From contig NZ_CP047024.1 of assembly GCF_009796745.1 (NCBI RefSeq), forward strand, positions 2,294,001 to 2,358,000: a stretch of DNA of 64,000 bases, written 5' to 3'. A program made the translations under genes and the position numbers. The first letter of the stretch is position 1. Every line of letters begins with the position of its first letter. The notes beneath the pieces are model-generated. The model ran no database searches and was not told the origin of the DNA. It worked only from the letters and a program-made list of their open reading frames with translations. The stretch comes from Paraglaciecola sp. L1A13. GTDB lineage: Bacteria; Pseudomonadota; Gammaproteobacteria; Enterobacterales; Alteromonadaceae. Below, piece by piece: positions 7,966 through 48,770 of the stretch.

Positions 7966-10900
7966 TTGCGTTCGAAACCCACCCCAGTTATTACCTCGGC
8001 GAGTACGAAGCAGCAGTCCACCAAGCAAGCAAATAGTACTCAACATGACGCAGCCGACTGTAGCATTGCATTGAGCTGGTTTGGCCGCTGGTTTTCAGGG
8101 CAACGAGGCTCGGTTGTCTTTAATTCACAAGGTATTACCTTACCTGATGGAAATGCGGTTAGCCGCCAAGCGAATGGCCAGTCTTTATCGTGGCAGCAAC
8201 TGGACTCGCCACCCCAGTTCGAGTGGCGCTGGTTGGGGGTTACGATGATCATTAGGGCAAAAGGTGTCGTTTACGAAAACCACTTTTTGGGTTATCGCAG
8301 CACCGCACGGTGCGCCAAGCAAGTTCAGCGATTATGGGCGGCGTATCATCAACATACGTTGCTCACGTTAGTGGGCAAAATTGAGCAGACGATTGAAACG
8401 CGCTATTTGCGCCAGTCTCGGCTAACTGCAATCAAGGGGCGAGTGGCTAGAGAATATAAGCGTTGGTTGCCATGGGGCGAAAACGCAGTCGTAAGCGAAG
8501 AGGTTAAAACGGCTTTGCGTAAACTTACCGCTATGCACTGCTGGAATGATGAGGCGCTAGAAAGTATTCGGCAAAACTTTATAAACACGCAACTTGTCCG
8601 TTACGGCGATTATTTTGATCAGGTGGAATCAAATCCGTTAACGGATAAACAGCGCCGTGCGTGCGTGATAGATGACGATAATAATCTGTTGTTAGCCGGT
8701 GCCGGTACAGGTAAAACCAGTGTTATGGTCGGGCGGGCTGGTTATTTACTGGCAAGTGGGCAAGCCGAGCCACAGGAAATATTATTGCTAGCCTACGGTA
8801 AAATAGCCGCCAGTGAAATGGACGAACGTATCAAAGCTAAACTGGGCATTGATAATATTAAAGCCAGCACCTTTCATAGCTTGGGCCTGAAAATTATCGC
8901 CGAGGTAGAAGGGCGAAAACCCAGCATGTCTGCCTGGGTGAATGACGAAAAAGCCAAAAATGTATGGATACAAAGCATCCTTGAAACTTTGCTTAACGAG
9001 CCAACTTATCGTCAGCAGTTATTTGAATACTTTAGCCACTATTATTACGTGCAAAAGAGCCCTTTTGATTTTGTTACCCAAGGGGAGTATTACGCTTACC
9101 TAACCGACAATGATATTCGCACGTTCAAAGGGCAGCGTGTTAAGAGCTTTGGTGAATTATATATTGCTAATTGGTTGTTCAGAAACGGCATTGAATATTG
9201 CTATGAAGCTAAATATGAATTCGATGTAGCCAGTACTGATTTTCGCCAATATCAGCCTGACTTTTATTTACCTGAATACGGCGTTTATATCGAGTATTAC
9301 GGCATTGATGAAAAGGGTAATACGGCCGACTATATCGATAAAGATGCTTATCACGCAGCAATGTGTTGGAAGCGCCAATTACACCAGAGCAACGGCACCA
9401 CTTGTATTGAACTGTTTTACCACCAACATGTTTTAGGCCAGTTGATACCCGAGCTTGAGCGTGCGTTGCAAGCCTATGAAGTGGTGTATTCACCCTTACC
9501 CGATGAAGCCATACTCGCCACTTTGCACGAATTAAACAGGATCACCGAACTGGCATCATTATTCGGCCAATTAATTGGCGTGTACAAAGGGGCATGTCTG
9601 GACGAGCAGGGTCTTAAAAAGCGGATTGCCAATGCAACTGATAGTGAACAAATACGCATGGCATTAACTTTACTCAACCCGGTTTACAACCGCTACCAGC
9701 AGCATTTGTCGAGAAATAGCGAGATTGATTTTGAAGATATGATCGCCAAGGCTCTAACATACGTTCAGCAAAAGCAATACGTACCCACGTGGCGCTATAT
9801 TATGGTGGATGAATTTCAAGATATTTCAGAGCCGCGTGCACGCTTAGTGCGCGCCCTGCGAGATGCTAGCGGCCAGAACACAACGTATCCTGCATCACTT
9901 TTTTGTGTAGGGGATGATTGGCAAGCTATTTACCGCTTTAGCGGTGCAGATGTCAGTTTAACAACCCACTTTACACAATATTTTGGTGCAACCACTGGGA
10001 GCGTGTTAGATGTGACGTTTCGTTTTAATAACCAAATCGCAGAGGTCGCTACCGCGTTTGTGAGCCAAAATCCAGGCCAAATCAATAAAAACATTCGCTC
10101 ACTGGTACAGGTTTCCGAGCCGGCTGTATCGATATTACGCCGAGGCGCGCAGCAAGGCCCTACGTCCCAAGAGCCAAGCTCAGATGCGCTGTCCCAAGCG
10201 TTGGCAGCTATCACTAAGCGGATTAACGAGAACACGCAGCCCGCGCAGGCTGAGTTTGAACCCAACCCTGTTAGTCATCACCTCAAACCGACCGTGTATT
10301 TGTTGGCGCGTTTCTGGTTTCAATTGCCGGACGCATCAGCCTTACGAGTATTGAATGCCCAGTTTCCAAGCATGCATATTAGCTGTTTAACCTTTCATGC
10401 CGCTAAAGGCAAGGAAGCGGATTATGGGGTGATCATGGGTATGACCAAAGGAAAAAATGGGTTTCCGTCCAGCAAAGTGACTCCGCCATTGCTTGATGCT
10501 TTGTTACCTCAGGCTGAAGTCTACCCGTTTGCAGAAGAACGACGATTGTTTTATGTTGCGCTTACCCGAGCCAAACATAGGGTGTACGTGTTAGCGGATA
10601 TGACCAATGCGAGTGCATTTGTGGTGGAGCTGACTGAACAAGCCAGTCAAGCCAACGTGGGCAATGGGACGGGCGGAGTAGAATTAGCGGAATTCACATG
10701 CTCGTTGGTGCAGCGCTTATTCGCTGACATTAACTGTGCAAGTTGTGAAACTGGGATCCTGAATGAGAAATTAGGAAAATTTGGCACCTTTTATGGTTGT
10801 TCTCACTTTCCTATTTGTGACCATACGGAGCCGAGTTGTGCGCAATGTCAAAGCCCCATGACGCGTACTCGTTATATGGGTTTTAAAGTGTGCTTGGATA

Positions 10901-21209: not shown

Positions 21210-21385
21210 TAGATTACGTTTACTCAGGTGTTTTACTGATTGAAGTATAAGCAATTGGAATAAATGTTTATGAACTGTTTTATTTTTAATCTAGTGAGGC
21301 GGGTGATATTTCTTTACATAGGTGTCGTAAAATAGTTACCATAAGGAGTCGAATTAATTAACCGCTTTCTTTAGGCTTTATATTT

Positions 21386-21658
21386 ATGGATTTACACAGT
21401 AGTGAATTGCCTGTTATTTTAAGAAACCTCCGAAAAGAGGCGGGCTACACGCAGGGGGAACTCGCGCTGCGCGTAGGGTTAAGTAGAGAAACGGTTTCTG
21501 CCATCGAAAACAATAAGCCTGAATCTTTACGCACGCTACAAATTGAAGTTGTTAAAAAGTGGTGGTCTGTTTGTCGTAGTAAAGCCAAAGAAGAAACCCG
21601 CAACAATTTCGTTAATCAAATCGTAGGCTACTTTAAATTTATCACCGATAGACTCTAG
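21386..21658 (+). CDS. Small XRE-type helix-turn-helix regulator
   Basis: The 90-residue protein is essentially one Cro/C1-type DNA-binding domain: LPVILRNLRKEAGYTQGELA, then LRVGLSRETVSAIENNK, with the Gln of the first and the Ser-Arg-x-T-V-S-x-I-E of the recognition helix in place. The tail has a second basic helix (VKKWWSVCRSKAKEETRNNF) instead of a known ligand domain. Its stop codon overlaps the GTG start of the membrane protein gene by one base (TAGTG), so the two are an operon and probably translationally coupled. It could control the exported repeat-peptide gene 840 bases downstream. Confidence 0.85.
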   Translation: MDLHSSELPVILRNLRKEAGYTQGELALRVGLSRETVSAIENNKPESLRTLQIEVVKKWWSVCRSKAKEETRNNFVNQIVGYFKFITDRL

Positions 21659-22368
21659 TGTTCTTTAGCTCGACCCGCATACCCAAATTCATTGGTTCTG
21701 TTCTATTTGTTTGCGCCGGATTTTTAACTTACGGCGACAGTCTGTTATTTGAAAAAATCTATCTTGCGTTACTAGGCTTTGTTGCTGTGTTATTCATTCG
21801 CGACATAAATATAGTCAGTATTATTGTTATATCTGCTGCTGCGAATTTATCATCCGAAATTTTGTATCCTCTTGTTATCAGTGAGCATTTCCAACTTATA
21901 TTGAAGCTGCTTACCTATTTAGCTGTCTGTTATACCCTGTATAAAGTTTCTGAAGATAGTATGCGTTTGCCGACGGTAATTGTTGTGGGTTTATGTTTAA
22001 CCACAGAGTGCTATTGGTACTTGACGAGTCAAGAAGCGCCAATGATTTTTTGGTACGTATTATTACTTACGATAAATCTTTGGGTACGCCATTTCTTATT
22101 CGCTCGCGTGTTCATTATGGCGAAATATTTCCCAACCCAATATCGTTCACTGAACTTAGATCACACTTTGTATCAATTAGTTTTCTTCTACATTTTACTG
22201 CACCAACTCGTTTTAGTGGAGTATATATTACGCCGTGTATTTGATGTATCAAGCACACACATTTACTATGCTGCACCTTATATCTTCCATGGTCTAACAA
22301 CTTATTCTGCGCTTTTGGTTTTAATCCAAGGCTACATTCTGATATCAAAAAACTGGTTTAAAGCCTAG
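21658..22368 (+). CDS. Polytopic membrane protein of unknown function
   Basis: I do not recognise the family. The 236-residue product starts with GTG inside the stop codon of the XRE regulator. It is almost entirely hydrophobic, with about eight predicted helices, for example FIGSVLFVCAGFLTYG, VSIIVISAAANLSS, MIFWYVLLLTINLW and YSALLVLIQGYILIS. It has no P-loop, protease motif or obvious transporter signature. A regulator-membrane protein pair directly before a small exported repeat protein suggests a sensor, processing or immunity role, but that is inference from position only. Confidence 0.7.
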   Translation: MFFSSTRIPKFIGSVLFVCAGFLTYGDSLLFEKIYLALLGFVAVLFIRDINIVSIIVISAAANLSSEILYPLVISEHFQLILKLLTYLAVCYTLYKVSEDSMRLPTVIVVGLCLTTECYWYLTSQEAPMIFWYVLLLTINLWVRHFLFARVFIMAKYFPTQYRSLNLDHTLYQLVFFYILLHQLVLVEYILRRVFDVSSTHIYYAAPYIFHGLTTYSALLVLIQGYILISKNWFKA

Positions 22369-22497
22369 TCGTTTAATTCTATAAAACGATTTTTTTTCAC
22401 GTTCATTTTAACCTTCTATGTGACATTGCCGATATATCCTTGATAATCACTTTGGTGGAAATTCGTCCATCATAAATTTGTTATTAGGATATATATC

Positions 22498-22785
22498 ATG
22501 AAAAAATTCACTCTTGCTGCCACTTCTGTATTATTTCTTCTCGCTTCTAGCTCTGCTTTCGCAATAGGAACAGGTGGCAAAATGGTTCCTCCTAGCTTTA
22601 TTGGTACCGGTGGCAAAATGGTTCCTCCTAGTATTATTGGTACGGGCGGTAAAATGGTTCCCCCTAGTATTATCGGTACTGGCGGTAAAATGGTTCCCCC
22701 TAGTCTTATCGGAACTGGCGGTAAAATGGTTCCCCCTAGTCTTATCGGAACAGGTGGTAAAATGGTTCCTCCCTCACAGCTATAA
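22498..22785 (+). CDS. Exported repeat peptide with six GTGGKMVPPS units
   Basis: The 95-residue product has a typical signal peptide (MKKFTLAATSVLFLLASSSAFA) and then nothing but six copies of the 12-residue unit IGTGGKMVPPSx, where x is F, I, I, L, L, then QL at the end. The 36-bp units differ mostly at synonymous positions (GGT/GGC, CCT/CCC), so selection keeps the peptide; units 4 and 5 are nearly identical, pointing to recent duplication. AGGA lies about ten bases before the ATG and an intrinsic terminator follows. The mature chain has no cysteine, no charge except one Lys per unit, and strict Gly-x-Gly-Gly and Pro-Pro elements. It could be a surface or matrix repeat protein or a precursor cut into identical peptides. 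I know no family for it. Confidence 0.85.
   Translation: MKKFTLAATSVLFLLASSSAFAIGTGGKMVPPSFIGTGGKMVPPSIIGTGGKMVPPSIIGTGGKMVPPSLIGTGGKMVPPSLIGTGGKMVPPSQL
22564..22782 (+). repeat. Six tandem 36-bp coding repeats
   Basis: In-frame minisatellite encoding IGTGGKMVPPSx six times, beginning directly after the predicted signal-peptide cleavage site. Copy number could vary between strains by slippage or recombination without breaking the frame. Confidence 0.95.
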
Positions 22786-22837
22786 CTTCAAAAATCCAGT
22801 AAGTCTTAGTTTTACTGGGGTAAAGATATGCCGTACG

Positions 22838-22868
22838 AAACGCCTCAATCGCTGTGATTAGGCGTTTT
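22838..22868 (+). terminator. Intrinsic terminator after the repeat-peptide gene
   Basis: AAACGCCT-C-AATC, a GCTGT loop and GATT-AGGCGTTT form a long hairpin with one bulged C, followed by TTCTTTT. It would end the repeat-peptide transcript about 55 bases after the stop codon. Confidence 0.85.
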
Positions 22869-22922
22869 CTTTTGCTTATTAATTAACGGTAACTTTTAAA
22901 ATTAATCCGATAATACATATTA

Positions 22923-46643: not shown

Positions 46644-46720
<77 letters not shown>

Positions 46721-46795
46721 ACCGATACCTCGTTAATTTCAAAGAATCTTAAAGAAAAAATTCGCCCTTTGGGCTCGCTCTTCATAGTCACGAAA

Positions 46796-46827
46796 GGTTG
46801 TAGGTTTAAATCCTGCTCCCGCCACCA
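46796..46827 (+). repeat. Partial tRNA-fMet 3' fragment after copy 1
   Basis: A 32-base copy of the variable loop, T arm and acceptor 3' strand with CCA of tRNA-fMet, with three changes (GGTTG, TTTAAA, GCCACCA). It is preceded by GGGCTCGCTCTTCATAGTCACGAAA-like sequence that resembles an interrupted anticodon arm. Confidence 0.85.
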
Positions 46828-46989
46828 ACGGATGCCTAGGTTTTAATTCAAAAGAATGAAACACAAACATAAAAATTAAAGCAATTCGCTTTAGGCTCCT
46901 TCTGCATAGTTATCAAAGATCTCGAGCTCAAATCTTGCTCTGAAAATCAGTCGATGCCACAGTTTTAATTAAGCATTATCAAATTCTAT

Positions 46990-47022
46990 CCGCCTATTGC
47001 TTATTCTTAGTTATTTAGGCGG
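46990..47022 (+). other. Hairpin upstream of tRNA copy 2
   Basis: CCGCCTA pairs with TAGGCGG over a 19-base loop, followed by CTTTGATATTT. It could be a weak terminator for transcripts coming from tRNA copy 1. An equal structure lies at 48197-48229 before copy 3. Confidence 0.45.
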
Positions 47023-47128
47023 CTTTGATATTTAGTGCTGATATTTCACGCATGAAAGCCCAAAACGTTTATTTTTAGTGCGATCTGTGGGATTAAACAG
47101 CAGTCAGACGCTGTTTTACATTTATGTC

Positions 47129-47155
47129 TTGTATTACCCATTAGGCCTCTATAGA
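47129..47155 (+). promoter_or_regulatory. Promoter of tRNA-fMet copy 2
   Basis: TTGTAT and TATAGA with a 15-base spacer, then GTGCTCC. The arrangement repeats that of copies 1 and 3. Confidence 0.65.
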
Positions 47156-47170
47156 GTGCTCCACATCGGA

Positions 47171-47247
<77 letters not shown>

Positions 47248-47323
47248 ACCGATACCTCGTTAATTTCAAAGAATCTTAAAAGAAAAAATTCGCCCTTTGG
47301 GTTCGCTCTTTATAGTCACGAAA

Positions 47324-48046
47324 GTTCGTAGGTTTAAATCCTGCTCCCGCAACCAACCGATACTTCAGTTTTAATTCAACACTTTCAAATTGAAAAGCTA
47401 AAGCAATTCGCCTTATGCTCGCTCTTTATAGTCACGAAAGGTCGTAGGTTCAAATCCTGCTCCCGCAACCAACCGATACCTCAGTTTTAATCCTTTTTTT
47501 AAATATAAAAACCAAAGCAATTCGCCTTAGGGCTCACTCTTCATAGTCACGAAAGGTCGTAGGTTCAAATCCTGCTCCCGCAACCAACCGATACCTCAGT
47601 TTTAATCCTTTTTTTAAATATAAAAACCAAAGCAATTCGCCTTAGGGCTCACTCTTCATAGTCACGAAAGGTCGTAGGTTCAAATCCTGCTCCCGCAACC
47701 AACCGATACCTCAGTTTTAATCCTTTTTTTAAATATAAAAACCAAAGCAATTCGCCTTAGGGCTCACTCTTCATAGTCACGAAAGGTCGTAGGTTCAAAT
47801 CCTGCTCCCGCAACCAACCGATACCTCAGTTTTAATCCTTTTTTTTAAATATAAAAACCAAAGCAATCGCCCTAGGGCTCACTCTTTATAGCCACGAAAG
47901 GTCGTAGGTTCAAATCCTGCTCCCGCAACCAACCGATACCTCAGTTTTAATCCTTTTTTTTAAATATAAAAACCAAAGCAATCACCCTAGGGCTCACTCT
48001 TCATAGTCACGAAAGTTCGTAGGTTCAAATCCTGCTCTCGCAACCA
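47324..48046 (+). repeat. Tandem array of seven tRNA-fMet 3'-half units
   Basis: The 32-base 3' end of tRNA-fMet (GGTCGTAGGTTCAAATCCTG and on to CCGCAACCA) recurs at 47324, 47440, 47555, 47670, 47785, 47900 and 48015. Five consecutive steps measure exactly 115 bases and the first 116. Between the tRNA pieces each unit has an AT-rich spacer (CTCAGTTTTAATCC, a T-run, AAATATAAAAACCAAAGC) and a GGGCTCACTCTTCATAGTCAC segment. Units 3-5 are practically identical, so the array was amplified recently. CCA is kept in every unit. Confidence 0.95.
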
Positions 48047-48335
48047 ACCGATACTTCAGTTTTAAATCATAATAATCAAAAACAAAAGCAATTCGCTTTA
48101 GACTCCCTCTGCATAGTTATCAAAGATCTCGAGTTCAAATCCTGCTCTGAAAATCAGTCGATGGCACAGTTTTAATTAAGCATTATCAAATTCTATCCGC
48201 CTATTGCTCATTCTTCGTTATTTAGGCGGCTTTGATATTTAGTGCTGATATTTCACGCATGAAAGCCCAAAACGTTTATTTTTAGTGCGATCTGTGGGAT
48301 TAAACAGCAGTCAGACGCTGTTTTACATTTATGTC

Positions 48336-48362
48336 TTGTATTACCCATTAGGCCTCTATAGA
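48336..48362 (+). promoter_or_regulatory. Promoter of tRNA-fMet copy 3
   Basis: TTGTAT and TATAGA with a 15-base spacer, identical to the promoter of copy 2 because it lies in the duplicated block. Confidence 0.65.
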
Positions 48363-48377
48363 GTGCTCCACATCGGA

Positions 48378-48454
<77 letters not shown>

Positions 48455-48522
48455 ACCGATACTTCAGTTATTTCAACGTTAAATTTCAATCGCCTTAGGG
48501 CTCACTCTTCATAGTCACGAAA

Positions 48523-48770
48523 GGTCGTAGGTTCAAATCCTGCTCCCGCAACCAACCGATACTTCAGTTATTTCAACGTTAAATTTCAATCGCCTTAGGG
48601 CTCGCTCTTTATAGTCACGAAAGGTCGTAGGTTCAAATCCTGCTCCCGCAACCAACCGATATTTCAGTTTTAATTCAACACTTTCAAATTGAAAAGCTAA
48701 AGCAATTCGCCTTAGGCTCGCTCTTTATAGTCACGAAAGGTCGTAGGTTCAAACCCTGCTCCCGTAATTA
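48523..48770 (+). repeat. Three tRNA-fMet 3'-half units after copy 3
   Basis: Fragments start at 48523, 48623 and 48739. The first two are exact copies of the tRNA 3' end and are spaced 100 bases, with a different spacer (ACTTCAGTTATTTCAACG) from the main array. The last is decayed, with CCCTGC in the T stem and CCCGTAATTA in place of the CCA end, and marks the edge of the cluster. Confidence 0.93.

Follow-up and report, generated by a model that had tools for sequence, protein, structure and literature searches.

A gene for a small XRE regulator, a gene for a multi-pass membrane protein, and a gene for an exported protein built of one short repeated unit stand side by side in Paraglaciecola sp. 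L1A13. Do the three form one functional system and, if so, what does the repeated peptide do in it? The triplet, named as a candidate new system in the original prediction, is followed here through the stretch of 64,000 nucleotides that was analyzed (the window), the rest of its genome, and the genomes of related bacteria.

Organization of the Locus

The regulator gene xre (21386..21658, forward strand) encodes a 90-aa helix-turn-helix protein of the Cro/C1 type, which matches Pfam HTH_3 (39.4 bits against a cut-off of 23), HTH_19, and HTH_31 and contains this domain only. The HipB-type antitoxin models of NCBIfam score below their cut-offs (TIGR03070, 35.4 bits against 71.65; HipB, 26 against 79). 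The gene overlaps the next one by a single base (TAGTG), which lies at the GTG start of a 236-aa membrane protein, hereafter MEM (21658..22368, forward strand). Eight helices with both termini inside are predicted for MEM, and the loops of 52 MEM proteins carry on average 10.1 Lys and Arg residues on the predicted cytoplasmic side vs. 3.1 on the periplasmic side.

The peptide precursor ORF (22498..22785, forward strand; 95 aa) starts 129 nt after MEM. It opens with a signal-peptide-like stretch of 22 residues, MKKFTLAATSVLFLLASSSAFA (22498..22563, forward strand), as judged by eye and by a hydropathy rule, and continues with six 12-residue units of the form IGTGGKMVPPSx, a final Leu, and the stop codon (22564..22785, forward strand). 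The units start at 22564, 22600, 22636, 22672, 22708, and 22744, i.e., every 36 nt, and end in F, I, I, L, L, and Q, respectively. An independent detection by Tandem Repeats Finder places the array at 22579-22774 (period 36; score 271; 91% matches). Behind the ORF, an intrinsic-terminator-like hairpin with a U-run (~22837..22873, forward strand) is predicted to fold at -14.3 kcal/mol (z -3.4), and 1 of 200 shuffles folds as well; the hairpin is not listed by a simple terminator scan, whose loop limit is 8 nt. The layout given in the original prediction is thereby borne out: the coordinates agree with a regulator and a membrane ORF coupled by the TAGTG overlap, sequence and Tandem Repeats Finder agree on six copies following the signal-peptide-like stretch, and the eight helices (consistent with hydropathy and charge pattern) and the separate terminator stand as predicted features.

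Upstream of the module lie a Kef-like antiporter gene (Pfam Na_H_Exchanger and TrkA_N; the NCBIfam Kef models score below cut-off) and a DUF2750 gene. Downstream, a siderophore-interacting protein gene is followed by a 706-aa ORF, which, read by eye, resembles a TonB-dependent receptor. Elsewhere in the window, three tRNA-Met genes (46644-46720, 47171-47247, and 48378-48454) are accompanied by tandem arrays of ~115 bp in 7.5 copies (47287-48147) and ~100 bp in 2.5 copies (48421-48669), the unit of which appears to include a tRNA 3' half with CCA (region 46644-48669).

Selection on the Repeat Units

The DNA of the six units, summed over 15 pairs and 11 codons, differs at 70 of 127 synonymous sites (0.56) and at 12 of 368 non-synonymous sites (0.03). 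The same contrast is found in a larger set, composed of the window gene and six orthologous genes from seven genomes (two contig ends, L031 and L032, were taken as one gene in G002). This set contains 51 window-type units with 45 distinct DNA sequences, among which the difference per site is 0.70 for synonymous and 0.05 for non-synonymous sites. The ten leading residues are the same in 50 of the 51 units, the single exception being M to I, and this conservation arises in part by construction at G-T-G, K, and P-P, which are fixed in the protein pattern used for finding units; no units beyond those caught by the pattern were seen when the array proteins were checked by eye. The pN/pS values of single genes are affected in the same way and are not counted as evidence here. 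Since silent sites diverge so strongly, the identity of the units does not stem from recent DNA copying, and the claim that changes between the repeats are mostly synonymous, with the peptide under selection, holds for both sets. Units 4 and 5, which had been described as looking newly duplicated, are indeed nearly identical, with one base difference in 36. A chance or low-complexity repeat was considered and is ruled out by the silent and replacement counts and by recurrence of the repeat across loci.

The repeat protein has a single sub-threshold match (PHROG, E 0.037) in Pfam, NCBIfam, PADLOC, and PHROG, so that none of these libraries has a family describing it; the original prediction likewise knew no named family with this unit. 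When PADLOC models were compared with the repeat protein and three MEM-type proteins, 0 families were matched, and XRE matched generic helix-turn-helix regulators only.

Distribution and Linkage of the Three Genes

The triplet belongs to a larger, unnamed family that extends beyond the window. A MEM profile finds matches in 46 of 395 sampled genomes and 12 of 52 genera of the host family, which we take to be Alteromonadaceae because Paraglaciecola, Aliiglaciecola, and Aestuariibacter are among its named members. Copy numbers are lower bounds, as the best 7 candidates per genome were scored and the genome samples are partial. In a sample of the order, 6 of 394 genomes match, all within the same family, and in a sample of the class 3 of 369, one of them outside the family (G857), with a marginal E of 9e-4 and an internal stop; neither sample therefore holds a convincing match beyond the family. 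Protein searches return at least 103 (A1) and at least 25 (A3) MEM matches, each from the best 7998-7999 candidates, and all homologs from A1 are unnamed or hypothetical.

The 80 MEM matches listed comprise 73 single loci, five matches in one array (L134), one at a contig end (G012), and one in G328 (E 1.6e-4); the locus counts given here cover the 73 loci and leave out the array. At 69 of them, MEM is immediately preceded by an xre gene (68 by profile and L102 by eye), and none was found upstream at L111, L117, L121, and L127. For the peptide gene, the count is limited to the 63 loci whose downstream sequence spans 800 nt or more. A signal-peptide-like ORF (by hydropathy) with a GxKxxPP-type core lies within 350 nt downstream of MEM at 56 of these, vs. 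0/63 on the opposite strand, 0/59 upstream, and 3/62 further downstream, where the three matches are probably tandem copies. At L079, L129, and L130, a peptide is present and was rejected by the strict ORF rule, while no peptide gene was found at L097, where the XRE also looks degraded, L099, L124, and L127.

That the regulator and the membrane protein travel with the repeat peptide, the check named in the original prediction, is supported by these counts at several chromosomal sites. Another module lies in the window genome (G000) itself, at a distance of 1.1 Mb; its array consists of 19 units of the type AVGSKQVPP[ST]LL. As for homologs of the repeat protein standing without the two upstream genes, which the original prediction regarded as evidence against a system, a search of 60 genomes gave 12 with a repeat-protein match, of which 11 also contain MEM (in G012 as a contig-end piece only). 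The twelfth, G042 (E 3.4e-4), reads VGLPALLGFAEK and is devoid of the core, and no MEM was found in that genome.

Two other origins were considered and rejected. A mobile or phage origin finds no MEM match in plasmids and phages (searched with the window MEM) or in viral contigs (searched with alignment A1). A ribosomally synthesized peptide with modifying enzymes is not indicated either, as no flanking family of ORFs of at least 110 aa accompanies most sites; such families are mostly those of a shared site, and a few broad ones (such as clusters C6, C7, C15, and C16) span more than one site. Copy numbers in draft genomes are unreliable, since the contigs of L031/L032, L081, L083, L089, L094, and L096 end in or near the repeat gene.

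Variation of the Core and of Its Copy Number

Most cores follow the pattern [G/S]-x-[K/R]-x-x-P-P, as in AGSKQKPP, VGGKTKPP, SGGKKEPP, AGGKKVPP, and SSRRVPP, and a few stretch the rule (SGTKQPDP, SLGLKKPP, and AGSKQKPK). The core occurs in several formats. In single-core precursors of 40-75 residues, often with an aromatic tail, it immediately follows the signal-peptide-like stretch. In a tandem format, it is encoded by three to six small genes (L077, L079, L084, L085, L086, L091, and L120). Internal arrays hold up to 31 cores with a unit length of 11 to 24 residues, some with a spacer between the signal-peptide-like stretch and the first unit (L026 and L035). Two arrays are mixed: L028 (G009 C31:1-237) has GSKQVPP units, then units of the NNKMKPP and TGKSKPP types at its end, and the repeat gene of L021 finishes at its 3' side with a decayed copy, ATNNEMKSIIIA. 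Both arrays look as if one core type were replacing another.

The Membrane Protein

Families describing MEM are absent from Pfam, PADLOC, and PHROG, and the Pfam matches of MEM and of a divergent relative, MEM2, are stray, single-member ones. The one NCBIfam match is sub-threshold (E 0.002, far under the cut-off), and no relative in the PDB is found by sequence at E<=1. Conservation is highest on the predicted cytoplasmic side, where R150 and D168 (window numbering) occur in 52 of 52 proteins each. At the predicted outer helix ends, E188 and R192 are conserved in 51 of 52 proteins, W120 and Y189 in 48, and E117 in 45. Judged from these residues, a pocket of acidic and aromatic side chains in MEM could hold a Lys...Pro-Pro peptide.

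At the prfC-rimI site (locus 2; 24 loci), the mean identity is 0.82 for XRE and 0.44 for MEM. For the neighbors, which were named by reading their sequences, it is 0.47 for RimI (20 loci), 0.30 for HolD (17), and 0.90 for RF3 (17). MEM is hence not unusually fast-evolving, being about as divergent as its neighbor RimI. The predicted periplasmic loops are less conserved than the predicted cytoplasmic ones at locus 2 (0.39 vs. 0.53, p 0.007), a contrast without counterpart in the whole MEM family (cytoplasmic 0.26 vs. periplasmic 0.30).

The distance between MEM proteins follows that between cores when RimI is accounted for (n 19; partial Mantel r 0.44, p 0.0002). The same is seen with XRE as a further control besides RimI (r 0.38, p 0.0012) and with HolD added to RimI (n 16; r 0.43, p 0.0008). 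The relation is weaker with RF3 as the control (n 16; r 0.21, p 0.068). Nor is it confined to MEM, since the XRE distance tracks the core too (r 0.24-0.40).

Natural fusions of regulator and membrane protein are present in array L134 (G087 C13 ~118.5-124.8 kb). Of the six ORFs of 304-361 aa in this array that match the MEM profile, four have a match to the XRE profile as well; three were compared with Pfam, and two of these exceed a helix-turn-helix cut-off. By eye, the six ORFs form two sets of three, separated by transposase-like genes. No peptide gene was found in the fused array.

A Divergent Branch with Double-Glycine Leaders

MEM2 is a more divergent membrane protein found beside the MEM loci L107 and L108, with its own XRE and an adjoining signal-peptide-like protein, which bears two SGGTKGDP units near its end. 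A profile comparison (probability 97.9, E 3.5e-13, 168 columns) indicates that MEM and MEM2 are homologous, and both contain an E-x-x-x-R motif (E188...R192 in MEM). The MEM2 profile matches 16 of 390 genomes and 10 of 52 genera of the family, several matches being marginal. With a single MEM2 protein as the query, the class sample gave 0 of 340, a negative of little weight, since this query also missed the MEM genes of the window genome. At least 7 MEM2 matches are found in each of four genomes of the genus g13 (best 7 candidates per genome scored), and most g13 MEM2 loci (L142, L163, L169, and relatives) have their own double-glycine precursor nearby.

An ORF composed of a double-glycine leader and a core is encoded on the MEM2 strand at 25 of 35 loci, vs. 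2 of 35 on the opposite one. The cores, such as SGIHNGDDP and SGGYKGPDP, directly follow the leader, and eight precursors carry 2-5 consecutive leader-core units (L144, L163, L164, L169, L170, L173, L181, and L182), several of which look like mutual orthologs. The TIGR01847 leader cut-off is passed by three of six MEM2-branch peptides tested. Among 12 genomes tested for C39 peptidases, frames of 711-801 aa are present in G064, G125, and the g13 genomes G033, G104, G137, and G165; no frame is seen in G088 or G011, that of G034 is weak (350 aa), and those of the Paraglaciecola genomes G000, G007, and G006 are short (227-356 aa), with a weak 713-aa frame in G006 as well. This tally counts peptidase frames irrespective of an ABC domain.

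The cores of the MEM2 branch each follow a plausible cleavage site, so that these repeats likely include their cleavage sites. Of the proposal that the window precursor is cut at each I-G junction and releases one peptide in six doses, the cutting as such gains support: homologous double-glycine precursors speak for it, the leader-core units of MEM2 being, by homology of the system, the best evidence that the window array is a multi-dose precursor. The I-G junction is a putative site; no recognized cleavage or protease site is seen in the window units themselves.

Regulator and Control Elements

A 20-nt block upstream of xre, TGTCGTAAAATAGTTACCAT (21323..21342, forward strand), contains the dyad GTAA-N5-TTAC (21327-21339) and is identical in all seven locus-1 orthologs; it is a candidate autoregulatory operator. 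The related dyad GGTAA-N5-TTACC or variants of it were recognized by eye at many locus-2 xre promoters. A genome-wide search for GGTAANNNNNTTACC returned 21 places vs. 16 for a control pattern, a difference too small to outline a regulon.

The predicted promoter of the peptide gene, GTGACA-16-GATAAT (22420..22447, forward strand), agrees with the consensus at 10 of 12 positions and sits in a footprint conserved among the seven locus-1 orthologs; taken alone it is weak, as the scan found 12 promoter-like sites vs. 6.5 expected. Just 3' of the -10 element, an inverted repeat (22453..22472, forward strand; -8.0 kcal/mol, z -3.4) may be a 5' mRNA stem-loop or an operator. Among 51 intergenic regions with a -10-like element, 29 have such a dyad scoring at least 8, whereas 200 single-base shuffles gave 5.6 +/- 2.0 with a maximum of 12. 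The sequence of the dyad varies with compensation (TGTGGA...TCCACA, GTGTGAAA...TTTCACAC, and GGCG...CGCC), which suits a 5' RNA stem-loop and is equally compatible with a palindromic operator.

Several locus-2 sites carry another XRE-type gene (M[YF]I[NT]G.DLR.MR..AGLTT...) on the downstream side of the peptide gene, among them L021 (G000 C1 ~3422700) and relatives such as L034, L035, L075, and L080. The same XRE type partners MEM2 in L135 and L136.

Proposed Mechanism and Alternatives

We propose, with a slight leaning in its favor, that the triplet is a self-contained peptide-sensing module, in which a multi-copy exported precursor would be sensed by MEM, which would in turn control XRE. The third gene would give rise to the exported precursor, and the repeated core (GTGGKMVPPS here, GxKxxPP in general) would be the active peptide, either cleaved off as several separate copies or working as a chain of linked ones. 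MEM would bind the core on its outer face, at the nearly invariant E117, W120, E188, Y189, and R192, and would pass the signal to XRE, which is made together with MEM and fused to it in some relatives. XRE may control its own promoter and probably that of the peptide, which would close a feedback loop. Gene coupling, fusions, recurrence at many sites, selection on the core, and double-glycine leader-core units are features of the sequences themselves; export, cleavage, binding, the direction of control, and cell-to-cell signaling are what we infer.

The linkage of XRE (69/73) and of the peptide ORF (56/63, with controls of 0/63, 0/59, and 3/62) to MEM argues for peptide sensing, as do the fusions in L134, the constancy of the core (50 of 51 units) set against a silent-site difference of 0.70, the MEM2 leader-core ORFs (25/35 vs. 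2/35) with TIGR01847 leaders (3/6) and C39 frames, and the covariation of MEM with the core given RimI. Against it stand the weakness of this covariation given RF3 and its lack of specificity for MEM, a MEM divergence no greater than that of RimI, and periplasmic loops that are more variable at locus 2 only and not family-wide. XRE was also not found at 4 of 73 loci, nor the peptide at L097, L099, L124, L127, and L134, and the window units show no protease site.

The main rival, which we consider rather improbable, is a microcin-like bacteriocin module, in which the peptide would inhibit neighboring cells, MEM would confer immunity, and XRE would regulate production. The double-glycine leaders and C39 frames are shared with bacteriocins, the membrane protein adjoins the peptide gene and covaries with it to some degree, and the fusions without a peptide could be orphan immunity genes. 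However, double-glycine leaders are used equally by pheromones, an immunity protein has no need of coupling or fusion to a DNA-binding protein, and membrane-active bacteriocins are not known to resemble this short, hydrophilic, and strongly conserved core.

That XRE and MEM sense another cue, from the envelope or the environment, with the peptide as regulated output rather than ligand, is in our estimate quite unlikely. LytTR regulatory systems, in which a regulator is combined with an inhibitor in the membrane, govern bacteriocin genes (PMC6193735), and the 5' dyad conserved in the peptide transcript points to an mRNA that is regulated or stabilized. Nevertheless, the peptide is linked to the XRE-MEM pair at many sites, and the pair occurs far more often with it than without it.

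A structural, adhesive, or amyloid surface repeat protein with a local regulator would account for exported tandem repeats of constant sequence and for a window unit without a recognized cleavage site; its probability is very low, since relatives contain a single core in 40-75 residues or several small genes, homologous systems are double-glycine precursors with a core after each leader, and the repeat protein has no Pfam or NCBIfam match. Two prolines, present in most units, disfavor amyloid, and functional amyloids of the curli or Fap kind are not indicated at this locus, where the tested neighbors are the antiporter, DUF2750, and siderophore-interacting protein genes. It is just as improbable that MEM is an intramembrane protease of the CPBP/Rce1 type that cuts the precursor, XRE merely regulating the pair: eight predicted helices and the E-x-x-x-R motif of MEM and MEM2, which in our view resembles EExxxR of CPBP proteases, would fit, but 52 MEM and 32 MEM2 proteins have no CPBP match at E<=1, and the alignments show neither the expected second glutamate ahead of the motif nor the expected invariant histidines behind it.

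If the peptide-sensing reading is correct, tandem constant cores and a branch with one leader per copy would represent a new way of making peptide signals. We regard it as evenly balanced whether these systems form an undescribed Gram-negative peptide-communication superfamily, in which XRE would be coupled or fused to a new eight-helix receptor, with multi-copy ligands, two export routes (Sec and double-glycine), and several parallel channels per cell. Should the peptide be a bacteriocin, the class would still be new, with a regulator-coupled membrane partner. The helix-turn-helix domain aside, no component fits a described family in the searched libraries. Neighboring genes here encode what may be a ligand, its receptor, and a regulator, with two versions in one genome and many natural variants.

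Comparison with Known Systems

Peptide pheromones are well known in Gram-positive bacteria and little known in Gram-negative ones, and a module of XRE, MEM, and peptide was not found in the open-licence PMC literature. Agr-type cyclic-peptide quorum sensing likewise encodes an exported peptide, a membrane protein, and a regulator together. It differs in that the precursor here is linear and multi-copy, the host is Gram-negative, and an AgrB-like enzyme and a histidine kinase/response regulator pair are missing from the window locus, which consists of XRE, MEM, and peptide only. The receptors of RRNPP systems are cytoplasmic, contain a TPR peptide-binding domain, and bind re-imported peptide. 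In Rap-Phr, ComRS, and PlcR-PapR (for RRNPP systems, see PMC10075063), a helix-turn-helix regulator adjoins an exported propeptide that yields a short peptide. In contrast, the present module always has a membrane protein in between, and the Pfam and NCBIfam searches gave no TPR domain for the 90-aa XRE of the window.

Class II bacteriocins and microcins (TIGR01847) share double-glycine leaders with the MEM2 branch and C39 frames with its genomes. The window precursor, however, has a Sec-type N-terminus, no double-glycine leader, and no bacteriocin model match, and the cores GxKxxPP and SGxxKGxxP score above the cut-off of no curated mature-peptide family. Tandem peptide copies in one secreted precursor are a feature of yeast alpha-factor. 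The same is true of fungal Kex2-processed repeat proteins, which contain tandem copies of short peptides (PMC7329392). Unlike the present module, these precursors are eukaryotic, have dibasic sites, and lack a linked regulator and membrane protein.

Among the LytTR regulatory systems, HdrRM and BrsRM form two-gene units with the regulator upstream of a multi-pass membrane protein; they are linked to bacteriocin control in S. mutans, and autoregulation has been proposed from their promoter elements (PMC6193735). The order of genes is the same at 69 of 73 MEM loci. In contrast, the window regulator is of the XRE type and matches no LytTR model in Pfam, MEM has no family, and the module includes a peptide gene; the direct repeats upstream of the -35 element, described for LytTR systems (PMC6193735), are replaced by a dyad at the xre promoter. 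By analogy, the module may be described as resembling a LytTR regulatory system joined to a multi-copy peptide precursor, while being a member of neither kind.
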